Shown here: positions 2,966 through 48,284 of the stretch, in pieces | Layout: each line of letters begins with the position of its first letter | How positions within the stretch are numbered: position 1 is the first letter of the stretch | From: Tsukamurella ocularis | GTDB lineage: Bacteria; Actinomycetota; Actinomycetes; Mycobacteriales; Mycobacteriaceae | Direction of reading: 5' to 3' | NCBI RefSeq assembly: GCF_024807615.1 | Contig: NZ_JANUCJ010000001.1 | Coordinates: 744,001 to 808,000, forward strand | DNA: 64,000 nucleotides | Position numbers and translations under genes: made by a program | The notes under the pieces: generated by a model | Database searches by the model: none | What the model saw: only the letters and a program-made list of their open reading frames with translations | Told to the model about the DNA's origin: nothing

Positions 2966-5900
2966 CTAGTCGGACTTGGCGAGGTGCTGCTGAGTGCCCT
3001 TGTAGTAGCGACCCAGGAACTCCTCCTTGAAGTCCCAATACGTGCCGTCGAGCATCGACTGCCGAATCTTCGCGACCAGGGAGACGATGAACTGCTCGTT
3101 ATGGATGGTGGCCAGCGTGGCCGCGAGACCCTCCTTCGCCTTGAACAGGTGATGGATGTACGCGCGGGTGTACTGCGAGGTGTAGTTCTGCGTCTCCGGA
3201 TCCAGCGGGCGGAAGTCCGTCTTGAACCGCGAATTGGTCACGTTGTAACGGCCGTCCAGCGAGTAGATCGCGCCGTTGCGGGCCACCCGAGACGGGGAGA
3301 CGCAGTCGAAGGTGTCGATGCCCTGCTCGACCGCGGCGAAGATGTCATCCGGCTCGGAGATGCCCAGCAGGTGCTTCGGCCGGTCCTCCTCGAGCTCCTG
3401 GTTCACCCAGCGCACGATGGTCGACAGGTTCGCCTTCTCCAGCGCGCCGCCAATGCCGTAGCCGCCGAAGCCGAGGCCGCCGGAGAGCCGGTCCTCCTCG
3501 CTCAGCGCGCGCAGGTCGCGGGCCGCCTTGCGGCGCAGGTCCTCGTACTGCGCGCCCTGCACGACACCCCACAGCGAGATCGCGTCCCGCCGTTGCGCGG
3601 TGAGCCAGTTGTGCTCGGAGAGGCAACGCCGCGCCCACAGGCGGGTGCGCTCCAGCGACTCCACCTGGTAGGCGCGCGTGTTGTGCAGGGTGGTCAGCTC
3701 GTCGAAGGCGAAGATGACGTCGGCGCCCAGCTGATGCTGAATCTGCATCGAAACTTCGGGCGTGAACCGGTGCTCGGTGCCATCGAGGTGGCTCAAGAAG
3801 GTCACGCCGTCGTCGTCGACGCGGGAGAGGCGGTCCTTGCCCTCGGCGATCGCGTCGTCGCCCTGGAGTTCCTCGCCGCCGGTCATGTCGATGACCTTCT
3901 TGAAACCCGAGCCGAGCGACATCACCTGGAAGCCACCGGAATCGGTAAAGGTAGGCCCGTCCCAGTTCATGAACGCGCCCAGGCCGCCGGCCTGCTCCAC
4001 GATCTCCGGGCCGGGCTGCAGGTACAGGTGGTAGGCGTTCGCCAGCACCGCCTGCGCCCCCAGCTCCGAGACAGCCTCGGGCAGAACCGTCTTCACCGTG
4101 GCCTTGGTGCCGACGGGGATGAAGGCGGGGGTGAGCATCTCGCCGTGCGGCGTGAGCAGCCGGCCGGCACGGCCGAGCGGACCGTCGGGGCCCTCGAGGC
4201 GCCCCTCGATCTCGAACCGCGTGGGGTCGCTGATGTGCTCGCTCTGGAGCCGGGTGCGGCTCGTCATCGAGCGGTAGTCGGAGCGCAGCGCGCTCAGCTC
4301 CGCCGCGATCGCCTTGTTCTGCTCGCGCAGCTGGGCGATCTCGTCGCGGGTGCGATCCCGGGCGACGATCGGGCCGGTCGCGGTCTGGTCCGGGCGCGGG
4401 ACACCGGGCCGCGCGACGGGGTACTCGGCGGTGTCCGGCGCGACGGTATCCGCCGCCGTGGCCATCTGTTCCGTGTCGGCGTACACGGGCGCCTGCTCGG
4501 TCACGTGCTCCTCGTCCTTGCCGAGGGGCACCAGTGGCACCGTCGGCGCGGCCGTGGGGAGCTCGACGCCGTTGGCAGTGCCGTTGGCGTGGCCGTTCAC
4601 GCCGGCATGCGCGACCCGCTCCGTGCCGCGGGCGGGCACGTCGGTCGCGCCGGCAGCGACGAGCTGCTCCGCCGGCACAGGAATCTCGGCCGTGACCGGC
4701 GCCGGGATCGCGGCGGTGTCGGCGTTCGCGTCGCCGCGGCCGAGCTGGGCGACGAGCGCCTCGCCCTCGATATCGACGTTGGGCAGGATCTTGTCGAGCC
4801 ACGTCGGCAGCCACCACGCCCACTTGCCGAGCAGCACCATCACCGACGGGATGAGCACCATCCGGACGATGAAGGCGTCGAGCAGCACCGCGGCGGCGAG
4901 ACCGAAGCCGATCTCCTTGATGAAGACCTGCTCGTTGAGCATGAACGACGCGAAGACCGAGATCATGATGATCGCGGCCGCAGTCACCACGCGGGCGCCG
5001 TACTGCACGCCCGTCACCACGGACTGCGTCGCGTCGCCGGTGTGCACGAACTCCTCGCGCATGCGGGAGACCAGGAACACCTGGTAATCCATCGCGAGGC
5101 CGAAGACGATGCCGATCAGGAAGATCGGCAGGAACGACACCAGCGGCTGGGTGTTGTCGATGATGCCGAGGGCGCCGTCGGTGAAGATCGCGGAGGTCAC
5201 GCCGAACGTGGCGACCACGGACAGCAAGAAGCCGAGAACCGCGGTGAGCGGCACCAGAATCGAGCGGAAAGCGACGAGCAACAGCAGGAACGCCAGGCCC
5301 ACGACGATCCCGAGATAGATCCACAGCGCGTCACCGAGCTTCTCCGAGATGTCCATCTCGATGGCGGTGCTACCCGCGACGCCGAGGTCCACGCCGAGGC
5401 GCGCCTTCGTGCCGGCGTCACCGTTGACCATCGTGCGGAGCTTGGTCACCAGGGTCTTGGTGTCTTCGTCGTTGGGGCCGGACTTGGGCGTCACGACGAT
5501 GGTCGCGGCCTTGTTGTCCGCCGCGAGCTGCGCGAGCTGCGCGTTCGCGATGAGCGGCGCGATATTGGGGTTCGTGTTCAGCTGATCGACGATCTGCTTG
5601 TAGGCGCCCAGGCGCTGGTTGGGCTGGGCCCCGGCACCGTCGACCGCGACGAGGAGGGTGCCGTTGGCGCCCTTGCCCCAGGCGTCGGAGATCAGGTCGT
5701 AGGCCTGGCGCTCCGACGTGCTCTTCTCGCTCATGCCCGAGCCGGGCAGGGCGGTCTTCATGTCCTTCATCGGGATCGCGAGGATGCCGAGCACCGCAAC
5801 GCCTGCGACAAGGGTGACGACGGGGACCTTCTTCACCAGATTCGCCCAGCGGAGGCCATTGGCGACGCGGCCCTCACCCTGGTCGGTGTCCTGCGGATGC

Positions 5901-7111
5901 AAGCCCTTGACCCGGCCGGCGAAGACCTTGGAGCCGAACAGGCCCAGCACAGCCGGCAGCAGGGTCAGCGCGACGATGACGGCGATGAACACGCCCCATG
6001 CGGCGGCGACACCCATCTGACCGAGGAAGTCCATGCCGATGAAGGCCAGCGCGGCGAGCGCAATGATCACCGTCAGGCCGGCGAAGATCACCGCGGTGCC
6101 GGCCGTGCCCACCGCGATGCCTGCGGCCTCGGCCCGCTGTTCCTTGGTGGTGGCGCCGAGGCGCCGTAGTTCGTGCCGGTATCTCGAGACGATGAACAGG
6201 GCGTAGTCGATGGTCACGGCCAGGCCGATCATCGACGTCAGGACCGTGGGGAAGGTGCCGAGCTCGACGAAGTGCGACGCGATCATGACGCCGCCGATGG
6301 CCACCGGGACCGCGATGATCGCGTTCAGCAGCGGGAGGCCCCACGCCACCAGCGAGGCGAAGGTGATGACCAGCACGATCGCGGCGACGATCATGCCGAT
6401 GATCTCGCTGGTCATGCCCATGTCCTCGGCGCCGCGCGCGGCGGAACCGTCGGCCTCGACCTGCAGGGTGCCGTTCGACGCGGCTTCGCCGGCTTCGCGG
6501 GCCTTCTTGATGTCCTCGGACAGGGTGTCCGGCAGATCCGTGACCTTGCCGAGGAAGTTCACCGTGATCTTGGCGGTCTTGCCGTCCGGGCTGACCGACG
6601 AGGTGGCCGCCGCGTCGGCGTCCTTCTGCGGCTGCGTCTTGGTCGACGCGATGGTCTTGCCCTGCTCGGTGACCGTCTCGAGCTTCGAACGCTGATCCGG
6701 GGTCAGCGCGTTCGTGTCCAGCTTGCCTGTCGGATTGTGCAGCAGCTCCGGGTCCTGGACGACGGAGACCTTCGTGCCGTCCTGATCCTTGGTGAGGTTC
6801 TTGATGTCGGCGATCGTGCGGTCGATGCCCGCCGCGGCCGCGGGGTCGGTGAGCTTGCCGTCCTTGGTGTGGAAGACGATGGTCGCCGAGGCGGTGGTGA
6901 ACGGGTCACCGCCGCTGTCTCCGAAGTTCTCGGAGACGATGTCCGTCGCCTTCGCCGAGGGGAGGCCCGGCAGCGAGAAGTTGTCGACCGTGGCGCCCTT
7001 GAGGGCCACGCCGCCGCCGAGCACGCCGACGAAGATCAGCAGCCAGGCCGCGATGACTTTGAAACGATTGAGGTAGGCGAACCTCCCCAACCGGTACAGG
7101 AACAGTGCCAT
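2966..7111 (-). CDS. MMPL/RND transporter fused to a TGT-like domain
   Basis: A single uninterrupted frame of 1381 residues. Residues 1 to about 778 are a complete MMPL (YdfJ-type) transporter: one N-terminal helix, a large exoplasmic domain, a five-helix block with the DYALFIVSRYRHE motif, a second exoplasmic domain and a second block with MDYQVFLVSRMREE. Residues about 779-948 are a hydrophilic Ala/Pro/Val/Thr-rich tail ending in a predicted coiled coil. Residues 949-1381 align with tRNA-guanine transglycosylase, with DSGGFQ near 1055, VVQG, and FDCVSPSR near 1267 (the nucleophile region). The zinc-binding CxCxxC is replaced by TQNYTS near 1304, and the GGLAVGE loop by GGALEK. The ATG at 7111 has GGAG 8 nt upstream; the ATG at 4267 that would start a free TGT has no visible ribosome-binding site. 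Confidence 0.85.
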   Translation of the reverse strand: MALFLYRLGRFAYLNRFKVIAAWLLIFVGVLGGGVALKGATVDNFSLPGLPSAKATDIVSENFGDSGGDPFTTASATIVFHTKDGKLTDPAAAAGIDRTIADIKNLTKDQDGTKVSVVQDPELLHNPTGKLDTNALTPDQRSKLETVTEQGKTIASTKTQPQKDADAAATSSVSPDGKTAKITVNFLGKVTDLPDTLSEDIKKAREAGEAASNGTLQVEADGSAARGAEDMGMTSEIIGMIVAAIVLVITFASLVAWGLPLLNAIIAVPVAIGGVMIASHFVELGTFPTVLTSMIGLAVTIDYALFIVSRYRHELRRLGATTKEQRAEAAGIAVGTAGTAVIFAGLTVIIALAALAFIGMDFLGQMGVAAAWGVFIAVIVALTLLPAVLGLFGSKVFAGRVKGLHPQDTDQGEGRVANGLRWANLVKKVPVVTLVAGVAVLGILAIPMKDMKTALPGSGMSEKSTSERQAYDLISDAWGKGANGTLLVAVDGAGAQPNQRLGAYKQIVDQLNTNPNIAPLIANAQLAQLAADNKAATIVVTPKSGPNDEDTKTLVTKLRTMVNGDAGTKARLGVDLGVAGSTAIEMDISEKLGDALWIYLGIVVGLAFLLLLVAFRSILVPLTAVLGFLLSVVATFGVTSAIFTDGALGIIDNTQPLVSFLPIFLIGIVFGLAMDYQVFLVSRMREEFVHTGDATQSVVTGVQYGARVVTAAAIIMISVFASFMLNEQVFIKEIGFGLAAAVLLDAFIVRMVLIPSVMVLLGKWAWWLPTWLDKILPNVDIEGEALVAQLGRGDANADTAAIPAPVTAEIPVPAEQLVAAGATDVPARGTERVAHAGVNGHANGTANGVELPTAAPTVPLVPLGKDEEHVTEQAPVYADTEQMATAADTVAPDTAEYPVARPGVPRPDQTATGPIVARDRTRDEIAQLREQNKAIAAELSALRSDYRSMTSRTRLQSEHISDPTRFEIEGRLEGPDGPLGRAGRLLTPHGEMLTPAFIPVGTKATVKTVLPEAVSELGAQAVLANAYHLYLQPGPEIVEQAGGLGAFMNWDGPTFTDSGGFQVMSLGSGFKKVIDMTGGEELQGDDAIAEGKDRLSRVDDDGVTFLSHLDGTEHRFTPEVSMQIQHQLGADVIFAFDELTTLHNTRAYQVESLERTRLWARRCLSEHNWLTAQRRDAISLWGVVQGAQYEDLRRKAARDLRALSEEDRLSGGLGFGGYGIGGALEKANLSTIVRWVNQELEEDRPKHLLGISEPDDIFAAVEQGIDTFDCVSPSRVARNGAIYSLDGRYNVTNSRFKTDFRPLDPETQNYTSQYTRAYIHHLFKAKEGLAATLATIHNEQFIVSLVAKIRQSMLDGTYWDFKEEFLGRYYKGTQQHLAKSD

Positions 7112-42716: not shown

Positions 42717-42911
42717 TTACGCGGAGGGCGCCTCGTCTCGCTGCCCGGTCAATGTCAGGACGGCCGCCGCCCGATCCGGACGCGCCCCGGCGAGGCCGTC
42801 CACCACCGCGAGGACGATCAGGACGAAGGGCAGAACGAAGTAGCCTGCGCGAGAGACCAGCGACAGGAGGAGGACCGAAGTCGCACCGAGGGTGCTCGGC
42901 GACCGAACCAA
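42717..42911 (-). pseudogene. remnant of a membrane protein
   Basis: A 64-codon frame with two hydrophobic stretches (LGATSVLLLSLVS and YFVLPFVLIVLAVV DGLAG) and good codon bias, but no ATG or ribosome-binding site and a stop codon shortly upstream. It is probably the end of a broken membrane-protein gene. A small intact protein starting at TTG cannot be excluded. Confidence 0.4.
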
Positions 42912-42999
42912 GGCGACGAAGGCCGTGCTGCTCTCCGTCCGTCACCGTGCGCCTGGTTCGGAAGTACTCGAAGGCGTACGAGCCCGTGGACACCGGTGC

Positions 43000-43170
43000 G
43001 CTCACCGCCTCACCGGTCGGGAGCGCGAGGTCCTCAAGGCGGTCGCGACCGGGCTGTCCAACAAGGAGATCGCTGCCGGCCTTGTCATAGCCGAGGAGAC
43101 CGTCAGCGCGAGCATCAACACTGCGCCGCGAGTGGAGGCGCCTGCGTGTGATCTACGCCATGGCCGTTCG
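43000..43170 (+). pseudogene. remnant of a LuxR-type response regulator
   Basis: The frame reads RLTGREREVLKAVATGLSNK EIAAGLVIAEETV, the classical LuxR HTH. After SASIN a one-base shift is needed to continue with LRREWRRLRVIYAM, which matches the recognition helix and the dimerisation end. No receiver domain is present upstream. This is a decayed two-component regulator output domain. Confidence 0.6.
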
Positions 43171-43384
43171 CGCGCGCCCCGCGCCGCGGGCATGGCCCGC
43201 CCTGGTCGTTGAGCTGCGAGAACACGTCTGCGAGCACGCTCGAGCGGAATTCGAGATCGCGATGCGTGGATGTGTCAGTTTCATAACGGTCCTTCGCGGG
43301 ACTTCCGAAAGACCGAAACCTCTGCTTCAGTGTGGCCAGAGTTGTTTATGTGACTGAAGTGAATTTCTTGAGCGGGGGGACAAG

Positions 43385-44524
43385 ATGAACCGTGCTGGTG
43401 TGAACCAGGCTGTGCGGCGGGGCAACCTCGAGCGTCGGCGACGAGATCGCGGGATCCGGAAACAGCTGTGGAGGGCCGGAGCGTTCGGCTTCGTGGGGGC
43501 CACGGTGCTCGCCGGTGGAGTCGTCGCGGCCGCACCGCCGGCAGCGGACAAGGCGCCGCGCCCCGGAGCCATCCGGACGGGCTTGTTCGCCGACACCTCC
43601 CGGGCGCTGGAGACCCGCGAGGGCTACGTGATCCGGGCGTGGAAGTACGGCGAGGAGCTGCGGTCGATCATTCCGCTCGGCCGTGCCTTGAACACATATG
43701 AGGCGATCGTCTCGATCGCCGGTGAGGGGCTGATCGAGTACAGGGATCCGAAGAACAAGCCGAAGGTGCCGATCCGGAGCGCGTCGATCACGGTGGGTCT
43801 GACCTTGGCGTGCGCGGCGACGCCGCAGAGTCTGCAGATCGGCGGCACCTTGTCGAATGCGGTGAACGCTTCGGTGACGCCGTCGCTGTCCGGCACCGTC
43901 GGAGCCACCGCAGGCGGCCAGGGCGGTTCGAGCGGCGGGCAGGGCAGCGGCTCGGTCAACGGGTCCATCACACCCGGGATCTCGGGAACACTCGGCGACA
44001 CGGTCACCACGTCGGGAACCATGACCGGCACCATCGCACCGGGCACATCGAAGGACTTCCCGATCGCCAAGAAGAACCTCGCCGGGCAGTCCGGGTACGT
44101 GGTGACCAAGGAGACCCGGATCGCGATGGACTCGTGCCTCGGCGGCGCGCAGGTCCGCGCGTACGCCACCGCGACGCTGTCGACCGATCAGGGCGACTCC
44201 GCGATCACCACGTACGGCAAGCCGCTGTTCATCGAGCGCGACAACCCCGGTCCGGCGAAGAATCCGCCGAAGATCACCGAAGATCCCAAGCCGGCACCAG
44301 CGCCCGCCGTCGCGGGAACCACGATCGCCGCCGCCACAACGACCGCGCCGGTCAAGCCCGCCCCGAAGCCGGCGGCGCCAGCCGTGAAGCCCGCGGGTGT
44401 GGCGCCGAAGCCGGTCGCCGTGTCCCCGGCGAAGCCCGCACCGGCGCCGTCGTCCGCCGCCGCACCGCCGGCGAAGCCCGCACCGGTGAAGCCCTCCGCT
44501 GAGCAACTGGTGCAGGTCCGGTGA
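43385..44524 (+). CDS. MspA-family porin with long Pro/Ala tail
   Basis: A 379-residue exported protein. A signal peptide covers about residues 28-50. The MspA signatures are the early EGYVIRAWKYGEELRSIIPL strand pair, GTLGDTVTTSGTMTGTIAPG, and the end of the barrel, STDQGDSAITTYGKPLFIE, which parallels the TGDSVTTYGEPWNMN end of mycobacterial MspA. Unlike MspA a central Gly/Ser-rich loop (GGQGGSSGGQGSGSVNGS) and a C-terminal 85-residue Pro/Ala/Lys tail are added. It should form an outer (mycolic acid) membrane channel. A GGGGGG ribosome-binding site precedes the ATG. Confidence 0.75.
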   Translation: MNRAGVNQAVRRGNLERRRRDRGIRKQLWRAGAFGFVGATVLAGGVVAAAPPAADKAPRPGAIRTGLFADTSRALETREGYVIRAWKYGEELRSIIPLGRALNTYEAIVSIAGEGLIEYRDPKNKPKVPIRSASITVGLTLACAATPQSLQIGGTLSNAVNASVTPSLSGTVGATAGGQGGSSGGQGSGSVNGSITPGISGTLGDTVTTSGTMTGTIAPGTSKDFPIAKKNLAGQSGYVVTKETRIAMDSCLGGAQVRAYATATLSTDQGDSAITTYGKPLFIERDNPGPAKNPPKITEDPKPAPAPAVAGTTIAAATTTAPVKPAPKPAAPAVKPAGVAPKPVAVSPAKPAPAPSSAAAPPAKPAPVKPSAEQLVQVR

Positions 44525-44554: not shown

Positions 44555-44776
44555 ATGGCTGAACAGGGACGCGGGAGCGTGCTCAAGGATGCGCTAGGTT
44601 TCGCCGCCGGCGCCGTGTTGATCGTGTGCTGCGCGGTGACACTGCCGCAGCTCCCGAAGGCCGTCGACGCGATCGGCCCCTGGCCGGTGTGGGGCGGGTT
44701 CTTCGTCCTCACGATGTTGGCGGGCTGGCTGTTCTGGTCGAACATTCAGAACCTCTACGACCACCTGAAACGATGA
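44555..44776 (+). CDS. small two-helix membrane protein
   Basis: A 73-residue protein with two predicted membrane helices (about residues 14-33 and 45-62). The second half, IGPWPVWGG...GWLFWSNIQNLYD, resembles the second and third helix region of the toxin-like protein at 45454 (FGPARYWTP...LVFWKGVRELWD): GP, a tryptophan-containing turn, a helix, then FW-x(2)-(I/V)-x(2)-L-(Y/W)-D. I do not recognise a family. The ATG is 30 bp after the porin gene and its stop overlaps the next start. Confidence 0.65.
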   Translation: MAEQGRGSVLKDALGFAAGAVLIVCCAVTLPQLPKAVDAIGPWPVWGGFFVLTMLAGWLFWSNIQNLYDHLKR

Positions 44777-45219
44777 CCGGCCCCAGCGAACTGAACCTCG
44801 CCCAGACGCTGCAGCGAGCGTTCATCGAGGCCGGCGAGCCGAGCATCAGCTCGGTGGCAGCGGGGTCGGGCGTCTCACGCCAGCGGCTCTCCGACTGGCG
44901 CTCCGGCAAGCACGTACCGAGCCGGTTCGATGACGTCGAACCCGTCATCGCCTACATCCGACTCGTCGCCGACGCGAGCGAACCCGTCGCAATGAACGGC
45001 GACCGAGTCACCGGATGGACCGACGAGAACTGGCGGCAGGCGTGGAAGCGCTCGACTACGGTTGCGTCTTCCACTGCGTCCCGCGCATTGCCGCAAGCGG
45101 TGGTGTCGACCGAGAAGGTGGATCGGCGGCCCGTCGCGATCGTCGTCGTCGGCCTGCTCGTTTTCCTCGTCGCGGCCCTCGCGGTAGCGGCCTTCCTCGC
45201 CAGCTGGGCGTATCGATAG
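44773..45219 (+). CDS. helix-turn-helix protein with C-terminal membrane anchor
   Basis: A 148-residue protein. Residues 20-50 are a helix-turn-helix (SISSVAAGSGVSRQRLSDWR then SGKHVPS), of the lambda-repressor-like type used by actinobacterial mobile or defence loci. The last 28 residues (AIVVVGLLVFLVAALAVAAF) form a membrane helix. The combination suggests a membrane-tethered regulator or adaptor. The ATG overlaps the stop of the previous gene (ATGA). Confidence 0.65.
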   Translation: MTGPSELNLAQTLQRAFIEAGEPSISSVAAGSGVSRQRLSDWRSGKHVPSRFDDVEPVIAYIRLVADASEPVAMNGDRVTGWTDENWRQAWKRSTTVASSTASRALPQAVVSTEKVDRRPVAIVVVGLLVFLVAALAVAAFLASWAYR

Positions 45220-45453: not shown

Positions 45454-47172
45454 GTGGCATCCCCCTCCGACCCACCCACCGACCGCGCTGGCGACACGGA
45501 GCAGTTCCCCGTCACGCGCGTCAGCACCGCCGCGGCGACCGATACCGACGACGTGCCGTCGACCGGTGGGCCCGCGCACGCTGTCAGCGCAAACGCTCCG
45601 GGGATCAGCCGTGCCGGGTGGTGGGCCATCACGATCGCGGCCGCGGTCGTGTTGGTTCTCGGGTTCTTGCTGACCTTCGGCCCGGCCCGCTACTGGACCC
45701 CGGTCCCGGCCGTCTTCCTCGGGTACTTCCTCATCTCCGGCGTCATCGGCCTGGTGTTCTGGAAGGGCGTCCGCGAACTCTGGGACTCGAACCCGACGCT
45801 GCACTCCGGCGACGGGCCCGCCACGCCCGGCGCCCGAGTCGCCGCCGCGATCGGTGCCGTCGGCATCGCGTCCGCGCTGATCATGCTCCCCGTCGGCCTC
45901 TCCGACGCGCCGGCCAGCGCAGCGCCGTGCCCAGACGGGACAAATACTTGTGGGCCGCAGCCGACCATGGGGCCGCAGCCCACCCAGGGCAACGGCGGCA
46001 ACACCACCGCCCCGCAAGCACCGAACACCACCGTGCCCGGCTACACCCCACCGGACACGCCGCCGCAGCAGGGCAGCGGCAGCACCCCGACCGTGCAGGG
46101 GCAGGTCCCGACGATGCCTACCGGCGACAGCCCGTCGAACGGCTGCATCTTCAACTGCGGCCCCACCCAAGCACCGCAGCAGGCCCCGCAGACCGGGCAG
46201 GCCACCCCGCCGCAGACCGCGCAGAACCCGGTCACAACCGCACCGAACACGCCCGCAACCACCCCGCAGGCGCCGACCACCACGGCGCGACTGCGCACCC
46301 CGACGCCCGAGACGACCACCTCCACGACCTCGAGCAAGGCGCGCGACCGCGACTACGACCAGCAGCGCAGCAGCGACGAGGACCGCGAGAAGAACTCGCC
46401 GTACCCGTACCAGGCCGCCCTTCTCTCGGCGGTCGGCGGAACGTACCGGCGGCGGCGCGATGGCAAAGTCGATCCCAGCCGGATTCTCGTGGACCCTACA
46501 ACTGCATGGGGCGAGGTGTACGACATCGTCCAGCAAGGCGGATGGACGCAGGGGCCAAATCTCCCAGACCACAGCGTTGACAACGCGACGTGGAACACAT
46601 GGGAGATTCGAGGTCGCGATCGGCTCGCGCGAACCAAGGTCGGTGTTGGCATGCAGGGCGCCGCGCTCGTCCTCCCTCAGGGTTCACGAGGTCTGCAACA
46701 ATACGTCGGAGGGACCGGGCGTCCGTTGTCAATCAGCCCAGAGGATCTGATGGCCGATTCCGCTCAATACAATAAGCATGTTTCCGATACCGTTCAACAC
46801 ATCATTTCCGACATGCTCGCGAGGGGCACAACTGGTACGCAGGCGTTTGTATCGAGTTGGGACGGAACGAGTACTGCGACAGATTCGACGGACTGGCACT
46901 TCCTCCTCGGAAAGTTCTCAACCAGCATTTCCGGATTGGTGAATCTCAAGCCGGACGGTAGTTACACGGTAAGCTACGTTGTACACGTGTACGACTACTA
47001 CGACTGGAAGCCGGGCGCCCCCATGCCTGAGATCGCGCAAGACGTAGGCTTGAGCGCTGAGGACATGTTCAGACTGCACATGGTGGGGCTGGCGAAGAAC
47101 TTTGAAACAGTAGGAACTAGTGCAGTTATCGAAACCATTGGAAAGGTGCAGCCCGCGCCAAGCACCCCGTAA
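45454..47172 (+). CDS. membrane-anchored polymorphic-toxin-like protein, colicin M-like C-terminus
   Basis: A 572-residue protein in three parts. Residues 1-150: a disordered lead and three membrane helices (about 54-74, 82-104, 128-148). Residues 150-310: a low-complexity Pro/Gln/Thr linker. Residues 320-572: a compact domain whose end resembles colicin M, which cleaves lipid II in the periplasm: GSYTVSYVVHVYDYYDW (compare colicin M's GSWTY...VVRSYDDKYDF) and FRLHMVGLAKNFE. The D-x-Y-D motif is D514-Y515-Y516-D517; the H-R pair expected five residues later is P-M here, while H542 is near. The GC content falls to about 47-57% from codon 330 on, a sign of recent acquisition of this domain. The following gene encodes a lipoprotein. 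Confidence 0.6.
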   Translation: MASPSDPPTDRAGDTEQFPVTRVSTAAATDTDDVPSTGGPAHAVSANAPGISRAGWWAITIAAAVVLVLGFLLTFGPARYWTPVPAVFLGYFLISGVIGLVFWKGVRELWDSNPTLHSGDGPATPGARVAAAIGAVGIASALIMLPVGLSDAPASAAPCPDGTNTCGPQPTMGPQPTQGNGGNTTAPQAPNTTVPGYTPPDTPPQQGSGSTPTVQGQVPTMPTGDSPSNGCIFNCGPTQAPQQAPQTGQATPPQTAQNPVTTAPNTPATTPQAPTTTARLRTPTPETTTSTTSSKARDRDYDQQRSSDEDREKNSPYPYQAALLSAVGGTYRRRRDGKVDPSRILVDPTTAWGEVYDIVQQGGWTQGPNLPDHSVDNATWNTWEIRGRDRLARTKVGVGMQGAALVLPQGSRGLQQYVGGTGRPLSISPEDLMADSAQYNKHVSDTVQHIISDMLARGTTGTQAFVSSWDGTSTATDSTDWHFLLGKFSTSISGLVNLKPDGSYTVSYVVHVYDYYDWKPGAPMPEIAQDVGLSAEDMFRLHMVGLAKNFETVGTSAVIETIGKVQPAPSTP

Positions 47173-47180
47173 GGATTTCC

Positions 47181-47693
47181 ATGCAGTTTACTCCCGTCCG
47201 TCCGTTCACATCCGCCCGCCGTGTCGTCCTGTGGTCGACGTTGATGTGTACTGTCGTATGCATCGCTGGATGCACTACAGACTTCTGGAAAGAGGTGCCA
47301 GCAAGCGCCTCCGAACGGCCTATATCGCAGATCGCGAATGAGGCGTTCGCTTGGGGGTACATTCGAGGCGTATCCGACAGTGGGGATGTCACGAGAGCCA
47401 AGAAGTCAATTTCCAGCCACGGGGAGATTTCGTATTCCGTCGGTCTTCATGCAAGCAGCTGCTATAGCGCGACGATTGCCTCTCTTTCCCTTCTTCCCGA
47501 AGGCATTCCTAGCAACGGGCGGATCGTCTACGGACCGCAGATGGACTTTTCCCCGCCAGGTTATGAATCCGCGCCGGCATCATTGAATCGCGACGTGGGA
47601 ATTCGAATCCGTAGGATCCTGACCGTCGATTTGGGTGAATCGGACAATTTGACCGGCCCTTGTTCAATGTCAATTGACCTGAACGAGTACTAG
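47181..47693 (+). CDS. lipoprotein, candidate immunity protein
   Basis: A 170-residue exported protein with a lipobox (TVVCIAGC, Cys near residue 30) and a mature domain of about 140 residues with two more Cys (ASSCYSAT and GPCSMS). It starts 8 bp after the toxin-like gene and shares its low GC content (about 57%), unlike the rest of the window. Immunity proteins against colicin M are anchored on the periplasmic side, so a lipoprotein in this position is a natural immunity candidate. No sequence similarity to known immunity proteins can be claimed. Confidence 0.55.
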   Translation: MQFTPVRPFTSARRVVLWSTLMCTVVCIAGCTTDFWKEVPASASERPISQIANEAFAWGYIRGVSDSGDVTRAKKSISSHGEISYSVGLHASSCYSATIASLSLLPEGIPSNGRIVYGPQMDFSPPGYESAPASLNRDVGIRIRRILTVDLGESDNLTGPCSMSIDLNEY

Positions 47694-47754
47694 TCAGTGC
47701 CGTCTGTGAAGGCAATCAGAGCTCTCCGAGGTTGAACAACGAACGAGCTGGGGC

Positions 47755-47925: not shown

Positions 47926-48199
47926 GACCGGAACCGCTTCCGGTGCTGGAGTCATTTCCCTCCGGGAAGCGTGGCGTTGACCCGCGCCTCGTATCGGGGT
48001 CCACGCGGACCTTCGAAGCACGTACTGTAGCTGGGTAGTCGAGCCATGTGTACATCCCATCGGTGATTTCTTTGATCACCCGCCAGCCGGGACGACACGC
48101 CGACACTAGCGCCGAGAATTCCACCGGCGATCGAGGCAAGGTGTGGCAAGTTTCGAAGGTCCCGATGCCGTATTCGGCACCGGGACCCTGCTTTACCTG

Positions 48200-48284
48200 C
48201 GGAAGCGGAGGGATTTGAACCCCCGGTGGTTTCACCCACGCTCGCTTTCAAGGCGAGTGCATTCGGCCGCTCTGCCACGCTTCC
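48200..48284 (-). tRNA. tRNA-Ser (anticodon UGA)
   Basis: An 85-base class II tRNA with acceptor arms GGAAGCG and CGCTTCC, anticodon arm CTCGC-CTTGAAA-GCGAG carrying TGA, a long variable arm and a T arm with GGTTCAAATCC. It decodes UCA and related codons. It borders the decayed mobile stretch and may have served as an integration site. Confidence 0.95.

Follow-up and report, generated by a model that had tools for sequence, protein, structure and literature searches.

Whether a mycolate actinobacterium can encode a colicin M-like toxin together with a lipoprotein antidote is the question raised by a locus of Tsukamurella ocularis (assembly GCF_024807615.1, contig NZ_JANUCJ010000001.1, positions 744001-808000) that lies in an analysed stretch of 64,000 nucleotides, hereafter the window, to whose positions the coordinates refer. 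The original prediction, made from the letters of this DNA alone, had described a 572-residue candidate toxin followed closely by a lipoprotein. Judged by comparison of sequences, the locus is a chromosomal polymorphic toxin–immunity system found genus-wide in Tsukamurella, and the toxin probably ends in a remote colicin M-fold domain that is a non-standard member of its family. The pair of genes is made up as follows (all on the + strand):

45454-47172, +: toxin open reading frame (ORF), 572 aa, GTG start (ORF call)
45454..45924, +: toxin residues 1-157, conserved membrane module (alignment of relatives)
45925..46389, +: toxin residues 158-312, Pro/Thr/Gln-rich linker with two Cys pairs, PCPDGTNTC and GCIFNC (alignment of relatives)
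46390..46458, +: toxin residues 313-335, junction motif KNSPYPYQAALLSAVGGTYRRRR, where conservation of the carrier stops (alignment of relatives)
46459..47172, +: toxin residues 336-572 and stop, swappable C-terminal tip, probable remote colicin M-fold (profile and structure comparisons)
46993..47004, +: D514-x-Y516-D517, aligned with D226-x-Y228-D229 of colicin M (hhalign columns)
47181..47693, +: probable immunity lipoprotein, 170 aa, lipobox IAGC31 (ORF and lipobox)

The three membrane helices and the long low-complexity linker of the original prediction were both recovered, the former as hydrophobic segments at residues 58-76, 84-102 and 129-147. The third is followed by a signal-peptidase-like ASAA-PCPDG stretch (a cleavage site by inspection only), and the cysteines of the toxin are residues 159, 166, 231 and 235. 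The whole protein matches no Pfam or NCBIfam family up to E 1, WXG100 and LXG included, and with neither WXG nor LXG detected the candidate of a type VII substrate was rejected; among four colicin M-like (ColM-like) relatives scanned, a weak WXG100 match (E 0.0077) appeared in L078 only. PADLOC returned nothing for four proteins. GC content is 71-74% over the N-terminal half and linker and 53-59% over 46500-47699 (300-base windows), so that the predicted drop over tip and lipoprotein gene is real, whereas the lower end of the predicted range (about 47-57%) was not reached at this window size.

The case for a polymorphic toxin rests on the carrier half. It was matched in 14 of 16 Tsukamurella genomes (E <= 0.001), is 81-88% identical in three named Tsukamurella records and 83-94% identical at six further places in the 16 genomes; at E <= 1e-5 it was found in 12 of 201 genomes of the family (31 genera), all twelve belonging to the window's genus. 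Against six relatives, identity over residues 50-300 is mostly 84-100% per 25-residue bin (lowest bins 64-80%), the first 50 residues being less conserved in five of the six, and it then falls to 64-72% in residues 300-325 and 24-40% in 325-350, and nowhere beyond does it exceed 36%. Beyond this junction the same carrier bears an Ntox44 tip (L044, E 1.4e-13, over the cut-off), a GH19-like tip (L042, 24.3 bits against a cut-off of 25.5), a Tox-REase-5-like tip (L041, E 0.017, 16.1 against a cut-off of 25), a tip to which no family was assigned (L039) and two distant, ColM-like relatives of the window tip (L040 and L043). A small gene, taken as the longest ORF, lies closely 3′ of each of the six tips, and in a comparison without the neighbour of L039 only those of L040 and L043 are alike. 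The pattern that defines a polymorphic toxin is present: a conserved N-terminal part is joined to unrelated C-terminal domains, and a differing immunity-type gene (as judged by adjacency and divergence only) directly follows each tip. Homologues with the same N-terminal region, varied C-terminal domains and varied small genes, which the original prediction had anticipated, thus exist. The shared-carrier set predicts several more toxin–immunity pairs within one genus; in the collection of papers searched, none on Tsukamurella polymorphic toxins was found.

Some further ORFs carry pieces of this arrangement. In L053 (G005:C2), ORF 3674-5290 has the linker, an HExxH metalloprotease-like motif and a match to prokaryotic phospholipase A2 (PF09056, 27.6 bits against a cut-off of 29.4). 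The ORFs at 6305-6634 in L040 and 5639-6463 in L046 (reverse-complement coordinates) end in DPDW(L/R)EKVVPNVPAPEPE...LY, as does the neighbour that follows L041, the toxin with the Tox-REase-5-like tip, yet they lie 3′ of other tips, a placement as expected of orphan immunity genes.

The window locus ends beside a tRNA gene:

48199..48284, -: tRNA-Ser(TGA) bordering the locus, also bordering differently tipped toxins in two other species

L042 and L061 (T. conjunctivitidis), whose tips are GH19-like and Ntox44, respectively, have this tRNA too, with similar DNA downstream: L061 matches at 90% over 3.6 kb, and L042 in two stretches, one of 2.0 kb at 78% and one of 0.5 kb at 69%, between which about 2 kb of window sequence are absent. 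At L039 and L062 just 58-61 nt of the tRNA end are left, a remnant of the kind expected of an attachment site. Because the same tRNA site is associated with different tips across three species, the simplest reading of the sequences is that tip and immunity gene have been exchanged at one chromosomal place.

The resemblance of the tip to colicin M was assessed with profiles and with predicted structures. With an alignment of seven colicin M proteins as the hhalign target, the tip alignments A3, A1 and A6 gave 93.1%, 87.2% and 83.6%, and 0 of 60 column shuffles reached the real score for each of the three; an unrelated control alignment of three neighbour proteins gave 0.2%. The match is colinear over the HYLxGxG, TGTF and LG...DxYD blocks and covers the activity domain only, its core beginning at 46609. 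A colicin-type bacteriocin with its own receptor part was rejected, hhalign aligning the activity domain alone. Searches with low-confidence models of the tip placed the colicin M family at ranks 1-13 (model 1) and 1-8 (model 2) in Foldseek against the PDB, and at ranks 1-10 of 1000 chains in VIA-align. The best structural matches are colicin M, PaeM, pectocin M and syringacin M, and two of the three main profile comparisons on the C-terminal domain favour this family, both in line with the original prediction. The predicted topology is largely strands; a TelC-like fold was rejected on that ground.

Relatives of the tip are sparse. The A1 profile found only the window's own genome among 396 genomes of the phylum, and a single-protein search of 397 genomes of the order found 19, the own one included; these counts are not comparable, because the samples differ and only 8 or 6 candidates per genome were scored. 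From the order search, 13 of 19 new loci entered A3. Left out were L074 and L081 (unrecovered by tblastn at E 0.01), L075-L077 (partial) and L083 (gappy); the match of L064 is identical to that of L063. Scans of genome and viral contigs with the tip or its relatives gave no confirmed relative, and a phage collection yielded none. Matches of single relatives to GspH (in L055, just under the cut-off), LamB and other Pfam families were judged to be chance, because each concerns one member and none occurs in the window protein.

ColM-like domains also turned up in very long frames. One actinobacterial genome has an uninterrupted frame of 18,658 codons (G533:C1:3518410-3574384, - strand, reached via L116-L119) that contains two copies, at residues 4691-4887 and 6172-6330, and in three other genomes the domain lies in frames of 5,752, 12,536 and 14,714 codons.

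The gene after the toxin encodes a candidate membrane-anchored antidote. The predicted lipoprotein gene does begin 8 bp downstream of the toxin ORF, and its 170-aa product has a lipobox, IAGC, ending at Cys31. Such a neighbour recurs at seven further ColM-like toxins: the eight looked at comprise the seven that the genus search gave and, from the 14 rows of A3 that represent the wider family, one toxin encoded on a plasmid of Mycobacteroides abscessus, and in every case the ORF that follows carries just one hydrophobic segment, close to its start. Five of these neighbours show a lipobox pattern, that of L040 a near-lipobox (by eye), and those of L048 and L056 a membrane anchor; starts were set as the longest possible, which on the M. 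abscessus plasmid gives a longer protein than the annotated gene. Within a set of 11 proteins, the neighbours of L048 and L056 form one family (E 1.5e-40) and those of L040 and L043 match at E 2.9e-6. The region visible upstream of the L056 tip, on a short contig, is not the window's carrier. As far as these sequences go, similarity between neighbours tracks similarity between tips, and the 170-aa lipoprotein is probably the immunity protein.

Starting from the computed conservation of the carrier, swapping of tips, adjacency of the small gene, linkage to MspA genes and remote similarity to colicin M, we propose a topology, a mode of secretion, a substrate, an immunity function and perhaps a role for MspA. 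The N-terminal half would anchor the toxin in the inner membrane, with linker and tip beyond the cytoplasm (a topology read by inspection only). The tip would be a divergent colicin M-fold enzyme that most likely hydrolyses, at the outer face of the membrane, either lipid II or a polyprenyl-linked cell-wall precursor closely akin to it, by means of two retained residues, Y516 and D514, the latter a metal-binding position in relatives; for lipid II itself as the substrate, another polyprenyl-linked precursor is the main competitor. The targets would most likely be related mycolate bacteria, killed or stopped, while in the producer the lipoprotein, anchored on the same face, most likely binds and blocks the tip. 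Tip and immunity gene would be swapped as a cassette onto the conserved carrier encoded beside an MspA-family porin. As a whole, a polymorphic toxin with a divergent colicin M-fold tip attacking lipid II or a related precursor, and a lipoprotein protecting the producer, is the best explanation, with a probability of roughly 0.7.

A number of observations weigh against it. Of four other tips looked at, three have a membrane neighbour as well: the GH19-like, Ntox44 and unassigned tips are followed by a lipoprotein or a membrane protein, and only the gene after the Tox-REase-5-like tip of L041 lacks any hydrophobic segment. Because of this, the location of the neighbour is weak evidence for the target. 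The window lipoprotein has no homologue besides itself in 201 genomes searched. PF14859, the colicin M family of Pfam, has no match in the window protein and is unlisted for all 21 rows of A3; over 198 actinobacterial genomes, the window's own included, it gave sub-threshold matches only and none over the cut-off. The colicin M motif D-x-Y-D-x5-H-R is incomplete, the D, Y and D being kept and H-R replaced by P-M; the distant alignment A2 and the quality of the tip models are taken up below.

It is the motif that bears most directly on the reaction. D514-Y-Y516-D517 and RLHMVGLAKNFE are present in the translation as first described, and the loss of the H-R pair noted in the original prediction is also borne out. 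Colicin M is reported to require D226, Y228, D229, H235 and R236, alanine at any of which leaves less than 2% activity (PMC8469651; here and below, statements about papers cited by PMC number refer to part of each paper). Across the 21 rows of A3, the D226 position is kept in 20 and the Y228 position in all 21; the D229 position is Asp in three, the window among these, and something else in 18; and the H-R pair occurs in none, Arg alone standing in one row. By motif, the tip family is not standard colicin M, as read from these alignments, because H-R is absent from all 21 rows and Asp fills the D229 position in just three. This pattern would suit a tip that kept the colicin M fold for another reaction, acting on a different envelope lipid (for example decaprenyl-linked arabinan or galactan precursors) or binding lipid II but leaving it uncut. 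Among colicin M domains of Pseudomonas, one that has H-x-Y-D-x5-F-K seems inactive (PMC8469651), and another, with I-x-Y-N-x5-L-K, is regarded as having lost activity (PMC5821083). The window protein, on the other hand, retains D-x-Y-D, and a His in an L/M/F-H-x-x-G block further on, present in 14 of the 21 rows including the window's, might substitute for the missing one. On balance a different reaction seems rather unlikely.

The fold itself may also be questioned, in that the tip could be another beta-rich toxin domain whose matches to colicin M reflect similarity of a short beta-hairpin. The more distant alignment A2 gave just 4.4% against colicin M, the tip models are poor (pLDDT 45 and 53, low TM), and in PDB sequence searches A3 found no colicin M match and A1 non-significant ones only (E 0.13 at best). 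Such a coincidence is nevertheless improbable, as the colicin M family tops hhalign, Foldseek and VIA-align alike, the hhalign match running colinearly over three blocks with shuffled controls far lower. That the protein is no weapon, and is instead a variable-tipped protein of the surface or envelope with the lipoprotein as partner, would suit the membrane-anchored carrier, the adjacent porin and the lack of any known activity, but is very improbable given that this very carrier is found with Ntox44, a named toxin domain that scores over its cut-off, as well as with further enzyme-like tips, and that tip and neighbour co-vary.

The attack on lipid II or a related precursor by a polymorphic colicin M-fold toxin, our preferred reading, would join parts of known kinds, because colicin M-fold tips and mycobacterial lipoprotein-type immunity proteins have already been described. 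With the colicin M family (ColM, PaeM, pectocin M, syringacin M; PF14859) the window toxin shares a remote activity-domain profile and probably the fold, the Asp-x-Tyr-Asp motif and a membrane-associated immunity partner beside the toxin (putative here); it differs in lacking a PF14859 match and H-R, in a likeness confined to the activity domain, and in presenting the tip on a membrane-anchored polymorphic carrier in a mycolate actinobacterium. The conserved N-terminus, swapped tips and adjacent variable small genes are those of the polymorphic toxin systems of Zhang et al. 2012 (PMC3482391), which name Imm65 as one lipoprotein-type immunity family; the part of that paper searched mentions neither MspA, Tsukamurella nor colicin M. 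Prophage-encoded WXG-100 polymorphic toxins of Mycobacterium abscessus (PMC8092301) likewise have a mycolate host and several putative lipoprotein immunity proteins, but are thought to be exported by type VII via the WXG-100 domain, which was undetected in the window protein. TelC, an LXG lipid II phosphatase (PMC5555719), also acts in a Gram-positive setting on lipid II from outside the cell, as the window toxin may, and differs by its largely alpha-helical fold, LXG carrier and Asp-rich motif with calcium. The colicin M fold also serves as a toxin tip in a polymorphic toxin domain reported as novel in 2025, whose immunity protein is BamE-like and membrane-anchored (PMC12419801), and, by prediction, in a DUF3289 T6SS effector (PMC12135965); the carriers there are cystatin-like or T6SS ones. 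Colicin M domains as polymorphic toxins have been reviewed for proteobacteria, Actinobacteria being unmentioned in the part of the review concerned (PMC5821083). Neither a colicin M-fold tip on this mycolate carrier nor the MspA linkage was found in the literature examined, which reports attack on lipid II by enzymes of the colicin M type from proteobacteria; if true, a mycolate member with a lipoprotein antidote would extend this attack to the group that includes the mycobacteria.

How a toxin passes the mycolic-acid outer membrane in this group is not settled, which draws attention to the genes upstream:

43385..44524, +: MspA-family (mycomembrane) porin gene, 379 aa, with a 99-aa Pro/Ala/Lys-rich C-terminal tail (PF09203, 109.2 bits)
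44626..45219, +: small protein with a helix-turn-helix-like segment and one C-terminal hydrophobic helix, start codon uncertain (ORF maps)

The porin belongs to PF09203 (cut-off 22.9 bits), and the toxin begins 1.2 kb beyond the end of its domain. Among 32 toxin places counted over 16 Tsukamurella genomes, 24 have an MspA gene no more than 5 kb away, where about 0.6 would be expected if MspA genes were placed independently; the count includes places with linker similarity only or about 31-36% identity, and leaves aside 2 of 34 carrier-search rows as fragments of one G009 locus. At all ten places with at least 70% carrier identity, MspA is upstream on the same strand, and the eight places without MspA within 5 kb include the next-best (60%). 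A Pro/Ala-rich tail of 96-125 residues is found on five toxin-linked MspA proteins, the window's included, and is absent from three others linked to more diverged toxins and from two unlinked ones (L106, L115). L101, L105, L107, L110 and L111 gave no match in this comparison, and the MspA ends of L102, L113 and L114 were read by eye, the scripted tail lengths being artefacts of short domain matches.

Any part played by MspA, be it as the toxin's way out through the outer membrane or as a receptor, is speculative. A tentative extension, doubtful but worth stating, is that toxin-linked MspA proteins are dedicated partners in a porin-coupled ('two-partner-like') delivery of polymorphic toxins across the mycolic-acid outer membrane, unlike type VII, and that the window's example is armed with a colicin M-fold tip suited to a precursor of the mycolate cell wall. 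The recurrence of MspA beside a swappable carrier is in any case a concrete, testable candidate route across that membrane. Judged by title and start of abstract, none of the papers found dealt with a link between MspA and such toxins or their export; a figure legend names MspA, LpqN and WXG genes on two M. abscessus plasmids (PMC8092301, in part).

The protein of 44626..45219 reaches HTH_3 at E 0.013, below the cut-off, and ORF maps place a counterpart between MspA and toxin in the closest loci. Just 5′ of the MspA gene, at 42892-43212, lies a LuxR-type helix-turn-helix fragment, at a position matched in L040 by an apparently whole response regulator. A second architecture, in the window's own genome (L052, G000:C1:1076004-1084444) and in L051, consists of an MspA gene, a hydrolase-like gene and a toxin-like protein that has a plain signal peptide, shares only the PCPDG...CGPQPT linker and is followed by two small proteins with a hydrophobic start. 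In L042, the MspA gene of the locus is in two pieces, with a transposase-like ORF (1076-2449, by inspection) between them.
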